Source of the DNA: Melioribacteraceae bacterium
Lineage (GTDB): Bacteria > Bacteroidota > Ignavibacteria > Ignavibacteriales > Melioribacteraceae
Length of the DNA stretch: 40,803 bases
Assembly: GCA_024103215.1 (NCBI GenBank)
Contig: JAGFIY010000126.1
Coordinates: forward strand, 1 to 40,803
Direction: 5' to 3'
This document shows positions 7,809-17,180 of the stretch, piece by piece. Within the stretch, counting starts at the first letter, position 1. Each line of letters begins with the position of its first letter. The notes under the pieces are model-generated. The model saw only the letters and a list, made by a program, of their open reading frames with translations, had not been told where the DNA came from and searched no databases. The translations under genes were made by a program, and so were the position numbers.

Positions 7809-9179
7809 ATGATCATATTCAGATATATATTAAAAAATCACGTCGCACCCTTTCTGTTTTCAAATTTTATTTTGATTGCAGTTTTGCTGCTTCAGTACTT
7901 GATGAAAATTTCCGATCTATTGATAGGTAAAGGATTAAGTTTTTGGATCATCAGTCAACTCATCATTTACAGCATGGCTTGGATGCTCGTTCTTGTTGTT
8001 CCAATGGCAGCTTTGGTATCCACGATAATGGCATTCGGTTCGATGGCGCAAAACAATGAAATTGCAATTTTTAAAGCAACCGGTATAAGTCTTTACAAAA
8101 TGATGATCCCTCCTCTACTTGGATCGATGATTGTTGCAGCTTTGTTGATTCAGTTTAATAATAACATATATCCTCATACAAATCACCAGGCTCGATTGCT
8201 CCTGCAAAATATCACACAACAGAAACCTACTCTGTCACTTGTCCCAGGTGTTTTTTCACAAGATGTTCAAAATTATTCCATTTTGGTCAGATCAATAAAT
8301 CCCGAGACAAGCGAGCTGGAAAATTTGACTATCTACGATTATTCAGATCCTTATAAAACAAATATAGTTACCGCGGAAAGAGGAAAAATTTATTTTTCAA
8401 AAGATCAGAAAAAATTGATAATGGATCTTGTGAATGGTGAGATTCATGAATCCGACAACAACGTAAGAGAACCTTATAGGAAACTTATTTTTGAAAAACA
8501 CCGCATTGCAATGAAAGGTGATCAGTTCTCATATCAGGCTTCAGATTTCGGCGGACAGCGCGGAGAGAGAGAGTTAGGAGCCTCAGAGATGCTTGTTATT
8601 GTGGATAGTTTATCGGCCCAGAGAAACAATTATTTGGATATATTTAAGGAAAAGCAAAAGCTAATATTTTTCCCCGATACAGTTCGTGCAATTCAGACTA
8701 GCCGCGAACCATCTAGTATGAAACATGTTTATTTGAGAGTAAAAGAAAGAATAAAAAACAATCAGAATAATCTTACCACAAGTCTCCACAGGTTGGATGC
8801 TAACTTGAGAGAACAGAACAAATATTGGGTTGAAATTCACAAAAAATATTCGCTGCCATTTGCATGCATTGTTTTTGTACTAATCGGTGCACCGCTTGGA
8901 ACAATGACTCGTAAAGGCGGATTTGGAATTGCGGCAGGGATCAGCTTGGCATTCTTTCTTGTTTATTGGTTCTTCTTAATCGGAGGAGAAAAACTAGCCG
9001 ATCGTGGTTTAGTAAATCCTTTTTGGGGAATGTGGAGCGCAAATTTCCTTCTGTTTTTTTTAGGTATTTTTCTGACGATAAAGAGTGCAAGAGAAAGAGT
9101 TACTATAAGTTTTGACTGGTTAATAAAGCTAATACCAAAACAACTTCGGAACACTGAAAAAACAGATGTTGATACTTGA
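7809..9179 (+). CDS. lptF: LptF-type permease of LPS export
   Basis: An inner-membrane permease of the YjgP/YjgQ family; with LptG and the ATPase LptB it pulls lipopolysaccharide out of the inner membrane toward the LptC-A-D bridge. The 456-residue chain has three membrane helices at the N terminus (about 10-120), a periplasmic jelly-roll-like domain (about 130-340) and three more helices at the C terminus. The family motif M-A-Q-N-N-E-I-A-I-F-K-A-T-G-I-S lies near residues 79-95. It overlaps the next gene by 14 bases, so the pair is coupled. It is somewhat long because of an insert before the last helices. LptF rather than LptG is inferred from order. Confidence 0.85.
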   Translation: MIIFRYILKNHVAPFLFSNFILIAVLLLQYLMKISDLLIGKGLSFWIISQLIIYSMAWMLVLVVPMAALVSTIMAFGSMAQNNEIAIFKATGISLYKMMIPPLLGSMIVAALLIQFNNNIYPHTNHQARLLLQNITQQKPTLSLVPGVFSQDVQNYSILVRSINPETSELENLTIYDYSDPYKTNIVTAERGKIYFSKDQKKLIMDLVNGEIHESDNNVREPYRKLIFEKHRIAMKGDQFSYQASDFGGQRGERELGASEMLVIVDSLSAQRNNYLDIFKEKQKLIFFPDTVRAIQTSREPSSMKHVYLRVKERIKNNQNNLTTSLHRLDANLREQNKYWVEIHKKYSLPFACIVFVLIGAPLGTMTRKGGFGIAAGISLAFFLVYWFFLIGGEKLADRGLVNPFWGMWSANFLLFFLGIFLTIKSARERVTISFDWLIKLIPKQLRNTEKTDVDT

Positions 9180-10248
9180 TAGATATATAACAAAACAATT
9201 TATTCAAACTATCTTCTTCGGACTGCTTGTTTTTATTATGATTTTCGTAATAATCGATATGTTCGAAAAGCTTGATGACTTCATAGATAAAGATGTTCCA
9301 AAAAGTATAATTTTTGAATACTACATTGTATTTCTTCCTGAAATAATAAGATTGATACTCCCGGTGTCGGTTTTGCTCGCCGGTTTGTTCACGGTCGGGA
9401 AAATGGTTAATCAAAATGAATTAACAGCAATTAAAGCTGCCGGGGTAAGTATTTATAGATTTATTATTCCTTTTTTAATTATTGCGTTTTTAATCAGCTG
9501 TTTTTCGATTTACTTTGGGGGATATACGGTTCCTCAAGCAAATAAACGGCGAGTTTACATCGAACAGAACCACATGAAAAAAGGTTTGGTGAATGCCGGA
9601 ACAAATATTTTCTTCCAGGATACAAAAACTAAAATAGTAACAATTTCTTATTACGATGTAGAACGCGATCAAGCGAACCGTATAAGCATACAAGAGTTTG
9701 ATGACAACAAACAGATAAATCTTAAGTCAAGGATCGATGCGGAGAAAATGAAATTCGATTCATTGACGGGATCGTGGGTAATAATCAATGGCTATCAACG
9801 TTTTTTTGTTGACGATTCTATAAAAGCAGATAAGATAGATACGCTTTTCATCAATAATCTTAATTTTTCCCCAGCTGAAGTGATAAAAAAACAGCGAAAA
9901 CCTGAGGAGATGACACTTACTGAATTAAGCGAATATTCGAAAGAAATACTTCGGACTGGAAACGATCCCACGAGAATAGAGATCGAATACCACAGCAGAT
10001 TCGCTTTTGCATTTTCGAGTTTAGTGGTAATCTTATTCGGTTTACCAATCTCAATCAACAAACGTAGAGGAGGGCTTGCAATTCAATTCGGAATAAATTT
10101 GTTGATTACATTTATATACTTAATTTTTATGAAGGTAAGTCAATCCTTCGGAAAAAATGGTGTCCTTGAGCCAATAATAACGGCTTGGATAGCCAATTTT
10201 ATTTTTTTAGCAGCTGCAGTATTCAATTTATATCGAGTTAGGAAATAA
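9166..10248 (+). CDS. lptG: LptG-type permease of LPS export
   Basis: The partner permease of LptF, 360 residues, same layout: three N-terminal helices, periplasmic domain (about 120-260) and three C-terminal helices. The conserved cytosolic loop V-N-Q-N-E-L-T-A-I-K-A-A-G-V-S matches the family. It starts inside the end of lptF (ATG 9166, lptF stop 9177-9179), a strong sign of translational coupling and equal subunit supply. Its TAA stop (10246-10248) directly abuts the stop of the convergent cyclase gene, leaving no room for an intergenic terminator. Confidence 0.87.
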   Translation: MLILDRYITKQFIQTIFFGLLVFIMIFVIIDMFEKLDDFIDKDVPKSIIFEYYIVFLPEIIRLILPVSVLLAGLFTVGKMVNQNELTAIKAAGVSIYRFIIPFLIIAFLISCFSIYFGGYTVPQANKRRVYIEQNHMKKGLVNAGTNIFFQDTKTKIVTISYYDVERDQANRISIQEFDDNKQINLKSRIDAEKMKFDSLTGSWVIINGYQRFFVDDSIKADKIDTLFINNLNFSPAEVIKKQRKPEEMTLTELSEYSKEILRTGNDPTRIEIEYHSRFAFAFSSLVVILFGLPISINKRRGGLAIQFGINLLITFIYLIFMKVSQSFGKNGVLEPIITAWIANFIFLAAAVFNLYRVRK

Positions 10249-12510
10249 TTATTTTGTTTTAAGTTCAAATACTCCATCCCAATCCTCACTAGGAGGATTA
10301 TTTAAATAAAATTGACATCTTTCAAAATAAGTCCAAGATGGACGGTCATCCGGTAATTGCTGAATTGATAGATCAAAATGTGCCAATGCTTTTTCGAAAT
10401 TTCTGCTATTGTATTCGTTCAGTCCCTTAAAATAATGTTTTAATTTCTGCATACGGTCAATGGATTCGGGATCATCTTTTCTTCCAATCAATTCAAAAAC
10501 TTTCGTGGGTTTGGTTTTCCCTTTAACCCTAATTGTATCCAGCACACGAACAAGCAGTCTATCACCAGCCAAAATGTAAGTTGATTCCGAAATCATAATA
10601 CGAGTACCATATTGTTTATTTGCCCCTTCCAGTCGAGAAGCTAAATTTACGTCATCGCCCATAACCGTATAATCAAACCGTTTTTCCCCACCCATATTGC
10701 CTACAACTACTTCACCGGTATTTATACCAATACGAATATCCAAATTAAGATCGCGTCCAAACTCATTGCCATTCAGCATTTTTTGAATTTCCTTTCTCAT
10801 GTCTATAGCAGTTAAGCAAGCAAGGTATGCGTGATCCTCTATTGGAATTGGTGCCCCCCAAAATGCCATTATTGCATCACCTAAATATTTATCTAAAGTA
10901 CCTTGATAGGAAATAATAATATTCGTCATTTCGGAAAGGTATTTATTCATAAATTTAACTAAATCTTCGGGAGTTCTTTTCTCCGATATTTCAGTAAAAC
11001 CAATAATATCACTAAAAAGAACCGTTAATTCCTTCTTCTCACCACCCAATCTTAATTTTGACGGATCATCAAGCAGCTGATTAACTAGCGAAGCTGAAAC
11101 ATATTGAGAAAACATACCTTTGATCATTACGTTTTGACGACGTTCACGGAAGTAATGATACGCTGTGCTTCCGAAATAGCCTACAATCAAAGCCATTGAA
11201 GGACCGACCATCGACATAAGATATTTATGTTGCAAAAAAAGCCAGTTTGTAATCTCAAAATAAATCAAAAGCAAAATAAGAACTGAAATAATATTTGCTA
11301 GTTCAAGAAGTACGCCATACTTAAATCTTATTTTTCTAAAAACAACAGAAAGATAGAATGAAACAGCCGTCAGCAAAAGAATAAAGAATGCTTCAAGCAA
11401 CTTGTCCTGAATGTATAAAAAATCATGCGAGAGAACATTATGAATTGCATTTGCATGATAATAAACCCCGTAGATTTGATTATCGCCTTTACGTTTAGCG
11501 ATCAAAGGTGGAATACTTACAAGGTCGCGATCCTCCGGCATTGTTGAACCGATAATAACAATCTTATTTTCAAATAGACCGCTGTAAAGCAGTCCATGCT
11601 CAGGATCATCCCAGGTATTAAGCTCAATTTCAAGATCTATCTCATCAGTAGTTTGAAATTCAGAATCATCCAAAACATCCATAAATTGAACTGTTGGGAA
11701 TAAACTTTTCTGATCTGCTCTTCGGAAATTGATTAGGAAAGAAGATGCATCAAATCTTGGAATATTAGTGTTTAAGAACATAAATTGATTTTCATCCAAA
11801 TTGATCGTCGGTGTAAACAACGAAGGAAGCTCAAAATATTTATTTAATAATGCAAAACCGAAAGTAGGAATTCTCTTTTCAACTGCTGATGAATACACAA
11901 ATGGTTGATATCTTCTCGCTATTCCGTCATCGTCCTTTGGAACTTGAACGATTCCCACCGAACTATCCGCTTCAAAAAAAATATTTCCGAAATCGCTTTT
12001 TAATTCTCGCTTTATTGCTTTGTTCGATCCCAACGAACGTTCAATCCGCTGTTCATCAAGCATGGATTCAAGTTCAATATCAACTTTTCCCGCAACCACA
12101 ACATTCTCATATTTATCAATGACGTCAAATAACAAACTATCATTGGAAGGGGAAAAAGAATCGCTGCCCGACATTAGAATATCTATCCCAATTGCTTTTG
12201 CTCCGGCTTCGTTCAAATTTTCAATAAGATTTGCAAATATATCGCGGGGCCAGGGCCATCTGTTGTATGGGTGAGGAATTTGATCGTACGTTTCTTGTGT
12301 TATTTCGATAACTATTATGTTCTCACAAACAAGCTCGTCAGAACTTCCTCGTTCAAGGAAGCGAAAGTCTATAAATTTATTTTCAAGTTCTTGCAGTGGT
12401 TTTATTGTGAATAGAATGTTTTGTGTAAGGATCAATACCACGAATGCTGCCGTTACAATTATAAAAATCGAAACGGCAGCTCTGGAATTGAAAATTTTGG
12501 CAAGATTCAT
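10249..12510 (-). CDS. CHASE2-domain class III adenylate cyclase
   Basis: A 753-residue membrane receptor that should make cAMP from ATP. In order: a membrane helix (about 12-34), a large extracytoplasmic CHASE2 sensor (about 40-365), three helices (about 371-450), a cyclase catalytic domain (about 490-675) and a short TPR-like tail (about 690-740). The active site is complete: metal aspartates D501 (V-L-F-S-D-I-I-G-F-T) and D545 (K-Y-L-G-D-A), base-selecting K541 and T615, and transition-state N622 and R626 (D-V-N-L-A-S-R-L-E). The K/T pair matches class IIIb adenylate cyclases. It is the last gene of the Fn3-like/FecR/barrel cluster, 17 bases after the barrel gene, so its sensor probably reads an envelope state set by those proteins. 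Confidence 0.92.
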   Translation of the reverse strand: MNLAKIFNSRAAVSIFIIVTAAFVVLILTQNILFTIKPLQELENKFIDFRFLERGSSDELVCENIIVIEITQETYDQIPHPYNRWPWPRDIFANLIENLNEAGAKAIGIDILMSGSDSFSPSNDSLLFDVIDKYENVVVAGKVDIELESMLDEQRIERSLGSNKAIKRELKSDFGNIFFEADSSVGIVQVPKDDDGIARRYQPFVYSSAVEKRIPTFGFALLNKYFELPSLFTPTINLDENQFMFLNTNIPRFDASSFLINFRRADQKSLFPTVQFMDVLDDSEFQTTDEIDLEIELNTWDDPEHGLLYSGLFENKIVIIGSTMPEDRDLVSIPPLIAKRKGDNQIYGVYYHANAIHNVLSHDFLYIQDKLLEAFFILLLTAVSFYLSVVFRKIRFKYGVLLELANIISVLILLLIYFEITNWLFLQHKYLMSMVGPSMALIVGYFGSTAYHYFRERRQNVMIKGMFSQYVSASLVNQLLDDPSKLRLGGEKKELTVLFSDIIGFTEISEKRTPEDLVKFMNKYLSEMTNIIISYQGTLDKYLGDAIMAFWGAPIPIEDHAYLACLTAIDMRKEIQKMLNGNEFGRDLNLDIRIGINTGEVVVGNMGGEKRFDYTVMGDDVNLASRLEGANKQYGTRIMISESTYILAGDRLLVRVLDTIRVKGKTKPTKVFELIGRKDDPESIDRMQKLKHYFKGLNEYNSRNFEKALAHFDLSIQQLPDDRPSWTYFERCQFYLNNPPSEDWDGVFELKTK

Positions 12511-12527
12511 TTTATCATTTATAAATT

Positions 12528-14915
12528 TTACATAATCCAGCGTGCTGTTAATCCAACGATTGAATTATTGCTCAAATCCTTAATTTTATAATATCTTGAC
12601 TGCAGTCCAATACTGAAGTTTGTTAATATGTTATAATCAACTATCAAATCAACAGCAATACGTTCAAGGTCACCAAAACTAGGACCTCCGGTCAATCTCA
12701 AGTTAAGTTTATTCTCCAACAATTTTATATTTCCACCTGCGGTAATTGTTGTATAACTGTATTTAAATCCAGCAATTTCTGACGAAGAATATACAGCACT
12801 GAACAGACTTGTAAATTCGTCACTCCAATTTGAATTAAATGTTAAAACTCCTGTCGTGATTTTTGCATCGGAATTTGTAAAAGTTTCGTCCTCCCGACTC
12901 GAAGTTGATACACTTAATCTTGCGTTGTGTACAATCCCAGTATTTAAATCATAAGAAAGAGAAGCGAGAAAACTATTAGTTCCGTTGTTTACAGCATAAA
13001 TGCTGTCGCTGGGAAGATCGTTATTATTATCGTAACGGGTATAACCAAGAGTTATGTTAGGGAAATCAGCTCTCGGATAAATCGAAACCGAAGTATTGAA
13101 AGTGTTAAAAGTCGTTGTGGCTTGCTTAGTATTTTGCAAATTATCAGTTAGTCTTTCATATCCGACGGAGAAGAAAGCCTTGTTATCAAGCAATCTTACT
13201 CTATCGTTTATATTAAATCCTTGTATATCCTTCCTAAGATAATTGTTGCCGAAAGATGTATAATCATTTCCGCGGTACAAATATGCAACTTTGAAATTGT
13301 TGTTGAAGTAATTTAAACGCAAAGCCGATTCGTATGCAAGAGATGAAAATTCTTCGGGATTTATCGGGCCCAAATATTGGTTGATCGTAATTATACCTTC
13401 TAGATAATCTTTCAACCTTATTAAGTCATCCGGATTTGTACCAAGCAGCGATCCATCACCAAAGAGATTTCTAATATCTTCTTCGGTTAGTGAACCGGTT
13501 CGGATATCTCTATTATAAATACTGAAAGCGGCTTCGTTTTCAAAAACAATCCGCTGTCTATCAAATGAAAGTTTAAGCTCGGTTCCGAAAACAGCATTCT
13601 CTTCAGGTTTTCCTCCGTATTCAATGCTTTCATCATTATCTTTTGAATGCAGGTAAGAGATACCGAATTTATAGTTAGAACCTTCCGCAAAAGTGCTAAG
13701 TGCAAAAAGATTTCTTCCGTAAGTTCCGTAATTGACATTTCCATATGTTGTTTCATCAATTTTAATCACGTTTGGATAAAGAATTAATGAATCTTCGAAC
13801 GCTTGTGTTGCTGAAAATGTTGATAGTAATCGTCCTTCTACGGATCTATTTATTTGTCCGTAAGAAGCTTGAACGTTAAAAAAGTCTATCTTTACTCCTC
13901 CGGTAACACCGCGCAATCTCTTCCCGTCAAGAAGCAATTCTTGATATCTCGGAAAGTTATCCCCAAATTTCAAGAACATCCAATCGTTTGATACTTCGCC
14001 AAAATATCTGTTTTGGGGCTGCAGATATTGTTTCTCCTCAGAGGTAATAAAAAGTCTTGCATTAAAATTCCAATCGCGGTAATTGCCTCTAAACTTTCCG
14101 TCAAAATTATTGTACCAAGTTTCTTCATCATTAAATCTTTCGTTTCTGGATTCACCTTTCAAATCAAAAAAAGTATTGAATGTATGTGCATAAATTCCTA
14201 CGCCTTTTTCAGCAAAGACATTGAAATCCGTAGTTATTGAATGGTAAAAATTTCCCTCAATGTCGTAAATTTCAACCCTCAACACATGATTTCCTTCTCC
14301 TATTGTTCCAGGAAAATTTTCAGGGTAAAACAAAAGAAGATCGTCAGCAAAAAGTACCATTTGAGTTACATCATTATCATCAACAAAAACTTTTGTAGCC
14401 GAGTTATCTATACTCGGCGGTACACGAAGAAGAGAAATTGATATAAAAAGATCATTCAAACTCACTGATTCGTGAGGAGTTGGGCTTAAAACAATAATCT
14501 GCCTATCTTTCTCTGAAACTGGTTGAATGCTAACCTGAAGAGCGGCGGCTTCATTTGGTGCGCCAATCGGATAGGCTTCATAGGTGCCATCCTTTAGCTC
14601 AACTCTTAAGAAATATTCAATAAAAGGCGGAGCAATCTTTTCACCGCTAACAGTTGTAGAAGCCGCGGCACCGAAAAGGCTCATCTCCTGTTCAGTAAAT
14701 TCGGTTTCACCAAAAAGTTTGTAATAAAACAATATCCGGTTAACGGCTGCGACTTGAAATAAATCTGCTTTTACCGTAAGCGGTTCACCCTCTTTAGAAT
14801 TAAGAACTTCAACATTTGATATATAGTTACTCACCTGTGCGTAAATTCCTACAGGCAGCAATAAAACAAAAATTATAATCAGTTTTGAAAGAACTACCCT
14901 ATTTCTTTCAATCAT
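12528..14915 (-). CDS. Large outer-membrane beta-barrel protein
   Basis: A 795-residue exported protein; signal peptide about 1-26 (cleavage at I-Y-A|Q). Residues about 28-240 look like two Ig-like beta-sandwich domains (for example the V-F-V-D-D-N-D-V-T-Q-M segment). From about 245 to the end, alternating hydrophobic/polar strands, many aromatic residues and N/D-rich turns suggest an outer-membrane barrel of perhaps 20 or more strands. I do not recognise a named family; there is no TonB plug or clear porin signature. It sits between the FecR gene (26-base gap) and the cyclase (17-base gap). It could be a channel, an anchor or a structural receptor for the signalling cluster. Confidence 0.72.
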   Translation of the reverse strand: MIERNRVVLSKLIIIFVLLLPVGIYAQVSNYISNVEVLNSKEGEPLTVKADLFQVAAVNRILFYYKLFGETEFTEQEMSLFGAAASTTVSGEKIAPPFIEYFLRVELKDGTYEAYPIGAPNEAAALQVSIQPVSEKDRQIIVLSPTPHESVSLNDLFISISLLRVPPSIDNSATKVFVDDNDVTQMVLFADDLLLFYPENFPGTIGEGNHVLRVEIYDIEGNFYHSITTDFNVFAEKGVGIYAHTFNTFFDLKGESRNERFNDEETWYNNFDGKFRGNYRDWNFNARLFITSEEKQYLQPQNRYFGEVSNDWMFLKFGDNFPRYQELLLDGKRLRGVTGGVKIDFFNVQASYGQINRSVEGRLLSTFSATQAFEDSLILYPNVIKIDETTYGNVNYGTYGRNLFALSTFAEGSNYKFGISYLHSKDNDESIEYGGKPEENAVFGTELKLSFDRQRIVFENEAAFSIYNRDIRTGSLTEEDIRNLFGDGSLLGTNPDDLIRLKDYLEGIITINQYLGPINPEEFSSLAYESALRLNYFNNNFKVAYLYRGNDYTSFGNNYLRKDIQGFNINDRVRLLDNKAFFSVGYERLTDNLQNTKQATTTFNTFNTSVSIYPRADFPNITLGYTRYDNNNDLPSDSIYAVNNGTNSFLASLSYDLNTGIVHNARLSVSTSSREDETFTNSDAKITTGVLTFNSNWSDEFTSLFSAVYSSSEIAGFKYSYTTITAGGNIKLLENKLNLRLTGGPSFGDLERIAVDLIVDYNILTNFSIGLQSRYYKIKDLSNNSIVGLTARWIM

Positions 14916-14941
14916 ATTTTTGCTCCGCTTATTTTTGAAAA

Positions 14942-15637
14942 TTAGTTCTCGTCGAATAATTCGAGTTCGTATTCACCTTCACTTGTTTCAATAATGTATT
15001 TTATTGTTTTATCTTTTTTAGAGCTGTTAAGTTTTGCTTTTTCGTCTTCCGTTGTAGGGCGAATTGAAATATTACCTTCTTTATCGATTTCAGCTGTATT
15101 TCCCGCTCCAACATTTTGTACTTCACCTCCGTTGCTGAGAGCTTTTACTTCAACTAATCCTTCTTCAACAATAAGCCAAGTCTTATCGGGAATTACTTCA
15201 AAGTAACCGCTAGTTCCCCTTATTGACGCCAATCCGGTAGGAGTTGTAAACTTAAACTCCTCATCCTGCTGTTTTGACACATCAAAATTGACAACTCCTT
15301 GATCGATCTGTGTGTTCTTATTTTGTTTTGTACCTTCTATACTACTGAATATTTTTACAATAGAATTTTCTCTTACCCTTAAAAGAGATTTATCAAGGAA
15401 TGTAACCAAAGCGAGTGACCTACCTCCAGTCCTAATTGAATGGCCATCTTGCAGCGTCATCCCTCTTTTGGCTTCTTCCCAATCATCGGTTTGTATTTTC
15501 TGATGTTCAACATCCTTAACAACTTTATTCAAAATTGCTACTGATTTTGAATTAGCGGCTTCCTCTGAATTTTGTGCTATTAACTGAGTTGAACACATTA
15601 TAAGAAGCATTAAAATTAAATTTATTGTCATTCTCAT
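14942..15637 (-). CDS. Periplasmic FecR-domain protein
   Basis: A 231-residue exported protein: signal peptide 1-21 (cleavage L-I-A|Q), then a FecR domain at about 45-190. The domain shows the usual run of short beta strands, including G-x-x-L-x-D-G-H-S-I-R-T-G (59-71) and the hallmark T-P-T-G-L-A-S-I-R-G-T-S-G (132-144). Classical FecR is an inner-membrane anti-sigma regulator with a cytosolic head; this one has neither head nor anchor, so it is likely a free periplasmic ligand-binding or scaffold protein. The C-terminal 40 residues are charged. A good ribosome site (GAGGAAAA) precedes ATG 15637. Its place between a secreted protein and the barrel/cyclase genes suggests it feeds a signal to CHASE2. 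Confidence 0.87.
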   Translation of the reverse strand: MRMTINLILMLLIMCSTQLIAQNSEEAANSKSVAILNKVVKDVEHQKIQTDDWEEAKRGMTLQDGHSIRTGGRSLALVTFLDKSLLRVRENSIVKIFSSIEGTKQNKNTQIDQGVVNFDVSKQQDEEFKFTTPTGLASIRGTSGYFEVIPDKTWLIVEEGLVEVKALSNGGEVQNVGAGNTAEIDKEGNISIRPTTEDEKAKLNSSKKDKTIKYIIETSEGEYELELFDEN

Positions 15638-15660
15638 TTTATTTTCCTCGGATTAAATAA

Positions 15661-16695
15661 TTAATTTACTACAGTTAAATCGATTATTGTATTTGTGTTG
15701 TTTTTTAGAAAATCCAACAATCGCATAATTTCATCCGCAGTAAGCGGAGTTCCATCCGATCTTCTTATACCGAGAAGTGTGACCCCATTATCAATTATGT
15801 CTTGCAACAAATCAGAACCGGTTCCATCATCCAATAATTGAAGCAATTCTGTCAATTCCAGAGTAATCATTTTGACAGATCCGTCCGTCAAATCCGATAA
15901 ATAAAAATTGACAATGTTGCTGAAAAGTTTTGAACCGCCGTCAGGTCCAGGAATATTTGCTTCAATTTGCATAACCATTTCCTGCCCAGGGACCCACTCT
16001 CTCTGGAGTAAAGTTCTCAAATTCGCAACTGTAACAAGTCCAACATCGGCATCAACATATGGATTTCCAGATTCGATAGCATCATCCAAACTTTGTGTTG
16101 GTGAACTTCTTTCAGCGACTTTTACTTTGTAACTACTAGCACCTGCAATATCTTCCCAGCTTGCAAGCACTGCCCCAATATCGTGGGAAGAACCGCTTTC
16201 CGGAGTAAGTATAACAAAATTTTGAGCTGGGTTCGAAAATTCAATGATCTCCGAATCACCATCTCCTCCGCCTTGAATATTAACATTAATTCTGAACTTT
16301 CCGGTTGGTCTACCGCTTCTCCTCAATTCTTCAATTGCAGTTTGATTACTTGTAGATTGTGCAATTGAAATATCGCTGCTGCCGAATTCATCGTTGCAGA
16401 AGTCGCGAGCTGTAAACGGATTTGTTACAACGCTTAGTAATTCTTGAAAACTACCGCCGTTAGCCGGCTGCCATTCAATATTCAATTCCAAAACTACTTG
16501 ATCGCCTTTCGGGTTAATTAAAAAGCACATGATGCGAGGTAAGCCTGATATATCATTTGTGTAGATGAATGCGGAAAGATCAATTTCCGGCAGTGGTTGA
16601 AACACCTGTAAATCAACTGTATGTTGTGCTTTAATATCCACACTTGCCGCAGCAAGCAGGAGAGAGCTAAGCAGAACGATTTTTAAAATTTTCAT
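15661..16695 (-). CDS. Secreted protein with Fn3-like domain
   Basis: A 344-residue exported protein of unknown function; signal peptide 1-23 (cleavage I-K-A|Q). Residues about 30-150 form a beta-rich domain with two cysteines (C57, C100). Residues about 160-270 carry the pattern of a fibronectin type III domain (I-L-T-P-E-S-G, then A-S-W-x-D-I-A-G-A-S-S-Y-K-V-K-V). The last 70 residues are Leu/Asp-rich and probably helical. It is the first gene of the FecR/barrel/cyclase cluster, 23 bases before fecR, with AGGAG five bases before its ATG and a clear promoter upstream. It may bind a partner on the periplasmic side or at the cell surface. Confidence 0.7.
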   Translation of the reverse strand: MKILKIVLLSSLLLAAASVDIKAQHTVDLQVFQPLPEIDLSAFIYTNDISGLPRIMCFLINPKGDQVVLELNIEWQPANGGSFQELLSVVTNPFTARDFCNDEFGSSDISIAQSTSNQTAIEELRRSGRPTGKFRINVNIQGGGDGDSEIIEFSNPAQNFVILTPESGSSHDIGAVLASWEDIAGASSYKVKVAERSSPTQSLDDAIESGNPYVDADVGLVTVANLRTLLQREWVPGQEMVMQIEANIPGPDGGSKLFSNIVNFYLSDLTDGSVKMITLELTELLQLLDDGTGSDLLQDIIDNGVTLLGIRRSDGTPLTADEIMRLLDFLKNNTNTIIDLTVVN

Positions 16696-16722
16696 ACTTA
16701 CTCCTAAACTTTATATAAAATG

Positions 16723-16751
16723 AAATTATTAAGTTGACGCAATCCTGTCAA
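16723..16751 (-). promoter_or_regulatory. Sigma-70-like promoter of the FecR/cyclase cluster
   Basis: On the minus strand, TTGACA (16751-16746) is followed after exactly 17 bases by TAATTT (16728-16723). The first gene starts 27 bases further on, preceded by AGGAG (16705-16701). A perfect -35 and good spacing make this one of the few promoters here that can be read by eye; whether this lineage's sigma factor uses that consensus is not shown. Confidence 0.5.
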
Positions 16752-16754
16752 CTT
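16731..16754. promoter_or_regulatory. Perfect 8-bp inverted repeat over the promoter
   Basis: AAGTTGAC at 16731-16738 and GTCAACTT at 16747-16754 are perfect inverted copies with an eight-base spacer. The repeat covers the -35 box and most of the promoter spacer, the usual place of a repressor operator. It could also serve as a weak terminator for the DUF3467 transcript, since AT-rich sequence follows it. Confidence 0.5.
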
Positions 16755-16853
16755 GGGATATAATATAGACTTCGTTTGAAATAGAAATTGTGAACGGAAT
16801 CAAGATAAGTGATTCGAATCAAAAATTAAAGTAAATTTATCCGACTGATAAAA

Positions 16854-17180
16854 TTAATTGTAAGTTTTATCCTTATCCCCGCTTACGAACCCAAATTGCG
16901 CGTTGGGATGATTTTCCAGCTTAATTTCGCCGAATTTTGTCTCAAATTTTTCGATATTTTCTGTTAATGCTCTTAAAAGCATCTTAGCATGCTGTGGCGT
17001 AGTAATGATCCTTGCATGCACTTTTGCCTTTGGCACTCCTGGAACAACTCTTGTAAAATCTATTATGAATTCTGCAGGTGAATGAGTAATAATTGCCAGG
17101 TTTGAATAAATTCCTTCGGCTTCTTTTTCGTTTAGTTCAATGTTAATTTTTTGTCCTTTTGCTTGAGGGTTCTGATCCAT
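16854..17180 (-). CDS. DUF3467 family protein
   Basis: A 108-residue cytosolic protein matching the DUF3467 pattern by eye: I-N-I-E-L-x-E-x-E-A-E-G-I-Y-S-N-L-A-I-I-x-H-S-x-x-E-F-I-I-D-F, then P-x-A-K-V-H-A-R-I-I-x-T-P-x-H-A-K. This small family is widespread in bacteria and its role is unknown. A strong ribosome site (AGGAGAG) sits just before ATG 17180. It lies 67 bases after the TPR gene, behind a terminator hairpin, and 102 bases before the promoter of the FecR cluster, so it probably has its own transcript. Confidence 0.8.
   Translation of the reverse strand: MDQNPQAKGQKINIELNEKEAEGIYSNLAIITHSPAEFIIDFTRVVPGVPKAKVHARIITTPQHAKMLLRALTENIEKFETKFGEIKLENHPNAQFGFVSGDKDKTYN

Follow-up and report, generated by a model that had tools for sequence, protein, structure and literature searches.

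A four-gene cluster of Ignavibacteria encoding an Fn3-like protein, a FecR protein, an outer-membrane barrel and a CHASE2 cyclase: a probable split relative of the NsrA–CyaK system

In the root-nodule bacterium Sinorhizobium meliloti, the cAMP response to the ribosomal protein uL2 depends on both an outer-membrane barrel protein, NsrA, and a CHASE2 cyclase, CyaK (PMC7529298, PMC13001267). This requirement was established by genetics, and NsrA, whose barrel comprises residues 600-1200, is reported as a receptor (PMC7529298). FecR and CHASE2 are also neighbours in two other described systems. In Campylobacterota, a CHASE2 adenylate cyclase is clustered with a FecR 'outer membrane protein', a TPR protein and a phosphodiesterase (PMC9239204), and in Burkholderia the gene of a LysM-FecR protein adjoins that of a CHASE2 histidine kinase in the BiofilmReg operon (PMC5192318). 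Inspection of the pSymB sequence revealed a 1219-aa ORF with a FecR domain at residues 85-179 (E 2.3e-15) and TPRs, the end of which overlaps the start of the next gene, encoding CHASE2 plus a cyclase. The record is unannotated; size, content and position point to NsrA and CyaK as the products of this ORF pair, as does the gene order, nsrA presumably lying immediately upstream of cyaK in S. meliloti.

The window, by which we mean the whole 40,803-nt stretch of Melioribacteraceae DNA analysed here (contig JAGFIY010000126.1), carries a four-gene block on its minus strand, with the layout listed below in the order of transcription.

16696..16853, minus strand: intergenic region 5′ of gene 1, presumed promoter, 158 nt
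15661..16695, minus strand: gene 1, Fn3-like domains (about residues 24-268) and a helical C-terminal region, predicted to be secreted, 344 aa (from the ORF list and a structure model)
14942..15637, minus strand: gene 2, soluble periplasmic FecR-domain protein with a signal peptide and neither TM segment nor lipobox, 231 aa; FecR domain at 15149-15436
12528..14915, minus strand: gene 3, outer-membrane protein in which two Ig-like domains precede a 26-strand barrel of MtrB-like fold (strands at about 14177-12534), 795 aa
10249..12510, minus strand: gene 4, CHASE2 receptor (11365-12435) carrying a class III adenylate-cyclase domain (10501-11037) and ending in a conserved TPR-like tail, 753 aa

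The ORF list gave gaps of 23, 26 and 17 nt between genes 1 and 2, 2 and 3, and 3 and 4, respectively, and ORFs, Pfam and models together bore out the preliminary description of the locus as a cluster of a secreted Fn3-like protein, a FecR protein, a barrel and a CHASE2 cyclase spaced by 17-26 nt. Hydropathy profiles indicated a single N-terminal hydrophobic segment in each of genes 1-3 and none further. No convincing Pfam or NCBIfam family match was obtained for genes 1 and 3, and their relatives had no consistent Pfam family match. Gene 2 belongs to the FecR family, with a match to PF04773 at E 2.5e-12 and 47.5 bits against a curated cut-off of 24. Its earlier depiction as a periplasmic FecR without an anchor holds, because the only hydrophobic segment resembles a signal peptide and a lipobox-like motif was missing in 104 of the 106 FecR copies scanned. 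The host genome (3.2 Mb, 99.9% complete) contains a single CHASE2 gene and a single FecR gene, both in the four-gene block, together with three cyclase-domain genes and eight cNMP-binding matches. On the downstream side, an lptF/lptG-type pair at 7809-10248 is convergent with the block, its last base abutting the end of the cyclase gene with zero gap. Directly upstream of the block lies a DUF3467 gene (16854-17180), which recurs at the corresponding position in numerous relatives of the window's family.

For gene 4, Pfam matches to CHASE2 (7e-48) and Guanylate_cyc (1.1e-29) were obtained, and hydropathy indicated a TM-CHASE2-TM layout. The cyclase residues D501, K541, D545, T615, N622 and R626, which make up a complete set of metal, base and transition-state residues, are all present and are invariant in 29 orthologues, in agreement with the earlier assignment of a CHASE2 receptor class III cyclase with a complete active site. 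A K...T pair is the signature of adenylate cyclases (class IIIb), and the K541/T615 pair suggests cAMP as the predicted product. Gene 1 was modelled with a pLDDT of 86.5 as a pair of Fn3-like domains followed by a helical tail, and structure comparison yielded Fn3 matches with Z of 9-10; the barrel profile also weakly matched the Fn3 region of this protein. The AF2 model of gene 3 (pLDDT 87.5, pTM 0.78) has 26 strands and two N-terminal beta-sandwich (Ig-like) domains, as expected of the large outer-membrane barrel proposed before. Comparison of this predicted model with solved structures gave MtrB (6r2q_B) as the best match, with Z 18.6 and 3.2 Å over 429 residues, followed by a second-best match with Z 16.9 and rmsd 7.2 over 254. 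In a profile comparison, the first Ig-like domain matched part of a bacterial peptidylarginine deiminase (6e-5).

Like NsrA–CyaK, the window's block thus encodes a FecR domain and an outer-membrane barrel next to a CHASE2 adenylate cyclase. In S. meliloti, however, FecR, TPR and barrel are one protein of 1219 aa, whereas in the window they are encoded by separate genes with no TPR in the FecR or barrel gene, and the Fn3 protein is extra. No similarity was detectable between the window barrel and the NsrA barrel by hhalign (probability 0.1%, E 0.65), a comparison of sequence only, so that the fold may be shared. Homology of the two barrels was ruled out at that level, and the parallel with NsrA therefore concerns the kinds of domains and not the whole proteins. 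The route had previously been put forward as one not known to be described, a claim that fails because the published NsrA–CyaK route already runs from a barrel through a CHASE2 cyclase to cAMP (PMC7529298, PMC13001267), with a FecR domain inside NsrA. The Campylobacterota cluster likewise combines a CHASE2 adenylate cyclase with a FecR-domain outer-membrane protein, but a phosphodiesterase and a TPR protein are part of it as well, and a separate Ig barrel or Fn3 gene is not reported for it (PMC9239204). The BiofilmReg operon shares a periplasmic FecR-domain protein beside a CHASE2 receptor, but there the FecR protein carries LysM, a histidine kinase with its response regulator takes the place of the cyclase as output, and no barrel is present (PMC5192318). 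FecA–FecR–FecI signalling also joins an outer-membrane barrel to a periplasmic FecR-domain protein; the window differs from it in having a cyclase as output and in lacking both a sigma factor and a membrane-anchored anti-sigma part. No description of the four-gene form was found in the literature searched, the original NsrA report (Garnerone 2018) lying outside that scope. The window holds a split form of an NsrA–CyaK-type system in which the barrel (two Ig-like domains, MtrB-like fold) is unrelated and an Fn3 protein is added; its split four-part form is new and its route is known.

The barrel profile matched 79 loci in named genomes, mostly of Ignavibacteria (e.g. Melioribacter, Stygiobacter and Ignavibacterium). 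When the conservation of the FecR-barrel-CHASE2 order, proposed earlier as a check, was evaluated in relatives, the order was found to be kept: FecR lies directly upstream of the barrel in 88 of the 91 distinct barrel loci, and the cyclase directly downstream of it in 85 of 91. The 88 FecR neighbours comprise 84 that were mapped and four hidden behind spurious antisense ORFs in GC-rich genomes; two of the remaining three loci are contig ends and L119 is unexplained. The order Fn3-FecR-barrel-cyclase is identical wherever the genes are linked, in about 100 related species, with median gaps along the block of 12, 49 and 6 nt at the distinct loci. The block occurs in many families of Ignavibacteria and, at L154, L163-L165 and L173, in further classes of the phylum, where the barrels are 23-26% identical to that of the window. 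These adjacencies demonstrate that the gene order is not accidental, and the conservation is stronger than the sequence of the window alone could reveal.

Among 294 Ignavibacteria genomes, counted regardless of kinship, 115 have both the barrel and the operon-type cyclase, two the barrel only, four the cyclase only and 173 neither, and the six genomes with one of the two alone are all less than 90% complete except G277. Split operons keep both barrel and cyclase in five genomes (those with L141, L146, L151 and L190/L175, the last being G157, and G104). At L141 and L151, Fn3-FecR-barrel is retained and the cyclase is on a separate contig (G573:C30 and G574:C90). The operon cyclases form one clade of 75 rows with an SH-aLRT of 98, which includes six unlinked cyclases. 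Two cyclases of this clade (L169 and L172) have no adjacent FecR or barrel, and for lone cyclases of the clade in other classes (G316 and G372) a barrel gene is present elsewhere in the genome.

The short gaps, the terminator pattern and the 158-nt gap 5′ of gene 1 favour the four genes as a likely single transcription unit. Only one terminator-like site was found on the minus strand within the four genes, near the 3′ end of gene 4. The preliminary description had placed the genes behind one promoter; the spacing it gave stands, and one promoter is likely but unconfirmed, the sigma-70-like matches in the region being at the level of chance (30 versus 29.9 in shuffles). A scan for a Bacteroidota-type promoter pattern gave none. 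In some relatives the FecR-barrel gap reaches 197 nt, and it thus leaves room for an internal promoter there. Just 5′ of gene 1, a perfect, operator-like inverted repeat, AAGTTGAC-N8-GTCAACTT, spans 16731-16754; as a conserved operator this palindrome was ruled out, no equivalent being found in relatives.

FecR was found beside CHASE2 in other lineages as well. In four of five alphaproteobacterial plasmid loci, which were selected for carrying annotation, a FecR-annotated gene lies directly upstream of the CHASE2 cyclase (Ruegeria, Paracoccus, Methylocystis and Shinella). Pfam confirmed the FecR domain in three of these four genes, the Methylocystis sequence being incomplete at its start. The Ruegeria pair (L200) adjoins ExbB/ExbD/TonB genes. 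In Azospirillum (L201), a ShlB/FhaC-type two-partner transporter gene comes after the CHASE2 cyclase gene, upstream of which a 241-aa protein with no Pfam match is encoded. A second, paralogous layout was observed in the same phylum (L036, L039, L166, L168, L170 and L171), consisting of a 1500-1670-aa TPR/NHL-propeller protein, a small FecR-like/TPR periplasmic protein, for which the FecR call rests on weak profile scores, and a CHASE2 cyclase. As in the window, a secreted partner and a small FecR-like/TPR protein are encoded directly upstream of the cyclase at L036, L166, L168 and L171, but the outer partner is the TPR/NHL protein and not a barrel plus Fn3 protein, and the cyclases of this layout form a clade of their own.

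In the phylum, a FecR neighbour is absent beside many CHASE2 cyclases, and the FecR-CHASE2 pairing is therefore frequent and not obligatory. Because FecR is often found with CHASE2 irrespective of outer partner and output, a FecR protein touching CHASE2 is the testable core. More tentatively, and with some doubt on our part, FecR could be a general periplasmic ligand of CHASE2, signalling the state of diverse outer partners (an Ig-barrel with Fn3, a TPR/propeller protein, the barrel fused in NsrA or LysM) to CHASE2 receptors whose output is either a cyclase or a kinase. If this were true, the Ignavibacteria operon would be its cleanest separated form, and FecR would answer what many CHASE2 domains sense.

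For the locus itself, we consider it probable that the four genes constitute one trans-envelope signalling unit, a split relative of NsrA–CyaK in which a surface state would be passed through FecR and CHASE2 to cAMP. Gene content, conservation and the published S. meliloti genetics support a functional link among the parts; contact among them, an inward signal, cAMP as the product and the assignment of the CHASE2 contact to FecR, and not to barrel or Fn3 protein, are inferred. In the proposed mechanism, the barrel would span the outer membrane, its pair of Ig-like domains would lie in the periplasm, and both the soluble FecR protein and the secreted Fn3 protein would cooperate with it; barrel and Fn3 protein would sense or transport something at the surface. 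When the barrel binds a ligand, passes a substrate or changes its assembly state, the barrel/Fn3/FecR assembly would be altered, FecR would then act on CHASE2, the periplasmic domain of the cyclase in the inner membrane, and the switching of CHASE2 would change cAMP, to be read by the cNMP-binding proteins of the genome.

The main competing explanation is a secretion or assembly device with cAMP feedback, in which the barrel would mainly export or display the Fn3 protein or other cargo, FecR would be a periplasmic helper, and the cyclase would report export load and adjust expression, signalling being a by-product. Such a device would suit an Fn3 gene that comes first and is always next to the block, the pilus ushers FimD and PapC that are among the many barrels matched by Foldseek, and the exporters that adjoin some alphaproteobacterial FecR/CHASE2 loci (TpsB-type in Azospirillum, an NHLP exporter in Shinella). 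We nevertheless judge it unlikely, since the cluster includes no plug, chaperone or protease partner, the best fold match of the barrel, MtrB, is no exporter, and NsrA is reported as a receptor (PMC7529298). Near-complete co-occurrence, even with the genes unlinked, argues in turn against co-transcription without direct signalling, in which CHASE2 would sense its own cue and the other three genes would supply envelope structure needed simultaneously. So do the occurrence, in a different phylum, of FecR and a barrel joined in one protein next to a CHASE2 cyclase and the requirement of NsrA in CyaK signalling (PMC7529298). Consistent with such co-transcription are the CHASE2 cyclases without FecR or barrel neighbours in the same phylum and the four-gene-clade cyclases that may be unlinked (L169, L172 and L175), but we hold it to be quite improbable.

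Two further explanations start from single proteins of the block. Gene 2 could be a classical FecR, acting as anti-sigma regulator of a distant ECF sigma factor with the cyclase incidental, and its PF04773 domain and the 12 sigma70 region-2 matches in the host genome fit this role. However, the protein has no TM segment and no cytoplasmic anti-sigma part, none of the sigma70 region-2 matches is on the host contig, and FecR directly adjoins CHASE2 in several other lineages. We regard this explanation as highly improbable, and an anti-sigma role was ruled out by the absence of a sigma gene on the contig together with that of an anchor. Likewise, 26 strands and MtrB as the best fold match would agree with an MtrB-type electron conduit, as in the porin-cytochrome complex MtrCAB, through which the cluster would report respiratory state. 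Against it, neither the window nor any of 109 barrel loci contained an ORF with at least three haem motifs, and the barrel had no sequence match to MtrB. The MtrB match is therefore read as a shared fold only; with no multihaem ORF near the barrel, the conduit was rejected, and we give it hardly any weight.

In the four-gene block, outer partner, FecR protein and receptor are separate genes that have been kept together across several classes of the phylum. Small soluble proteins can thereby be used to ask whether FecR binds and switches CHASE2, a question that the fused NsrA makes more difficult to address, and it is for these separate and testable parts that the four-part variant is of interest. 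It would also carry the barrel-to-cAMP route beyond a single plant symbiont and into a broad group of environmental bacteria.

In addition, an rseP-like site-2 protease gene lies directly upstream of the block on the same strand at L131, L138, L176, L178, L183-L188, L190 and L191. RseP cleaves FecR-type anti-sigma factors in other systems, and the placement of this gene beside the block may or may not be due to chance. At some of these loci, which belong to several families of the class, the rseP-like gene is itself preceded by a dxr-like gene.
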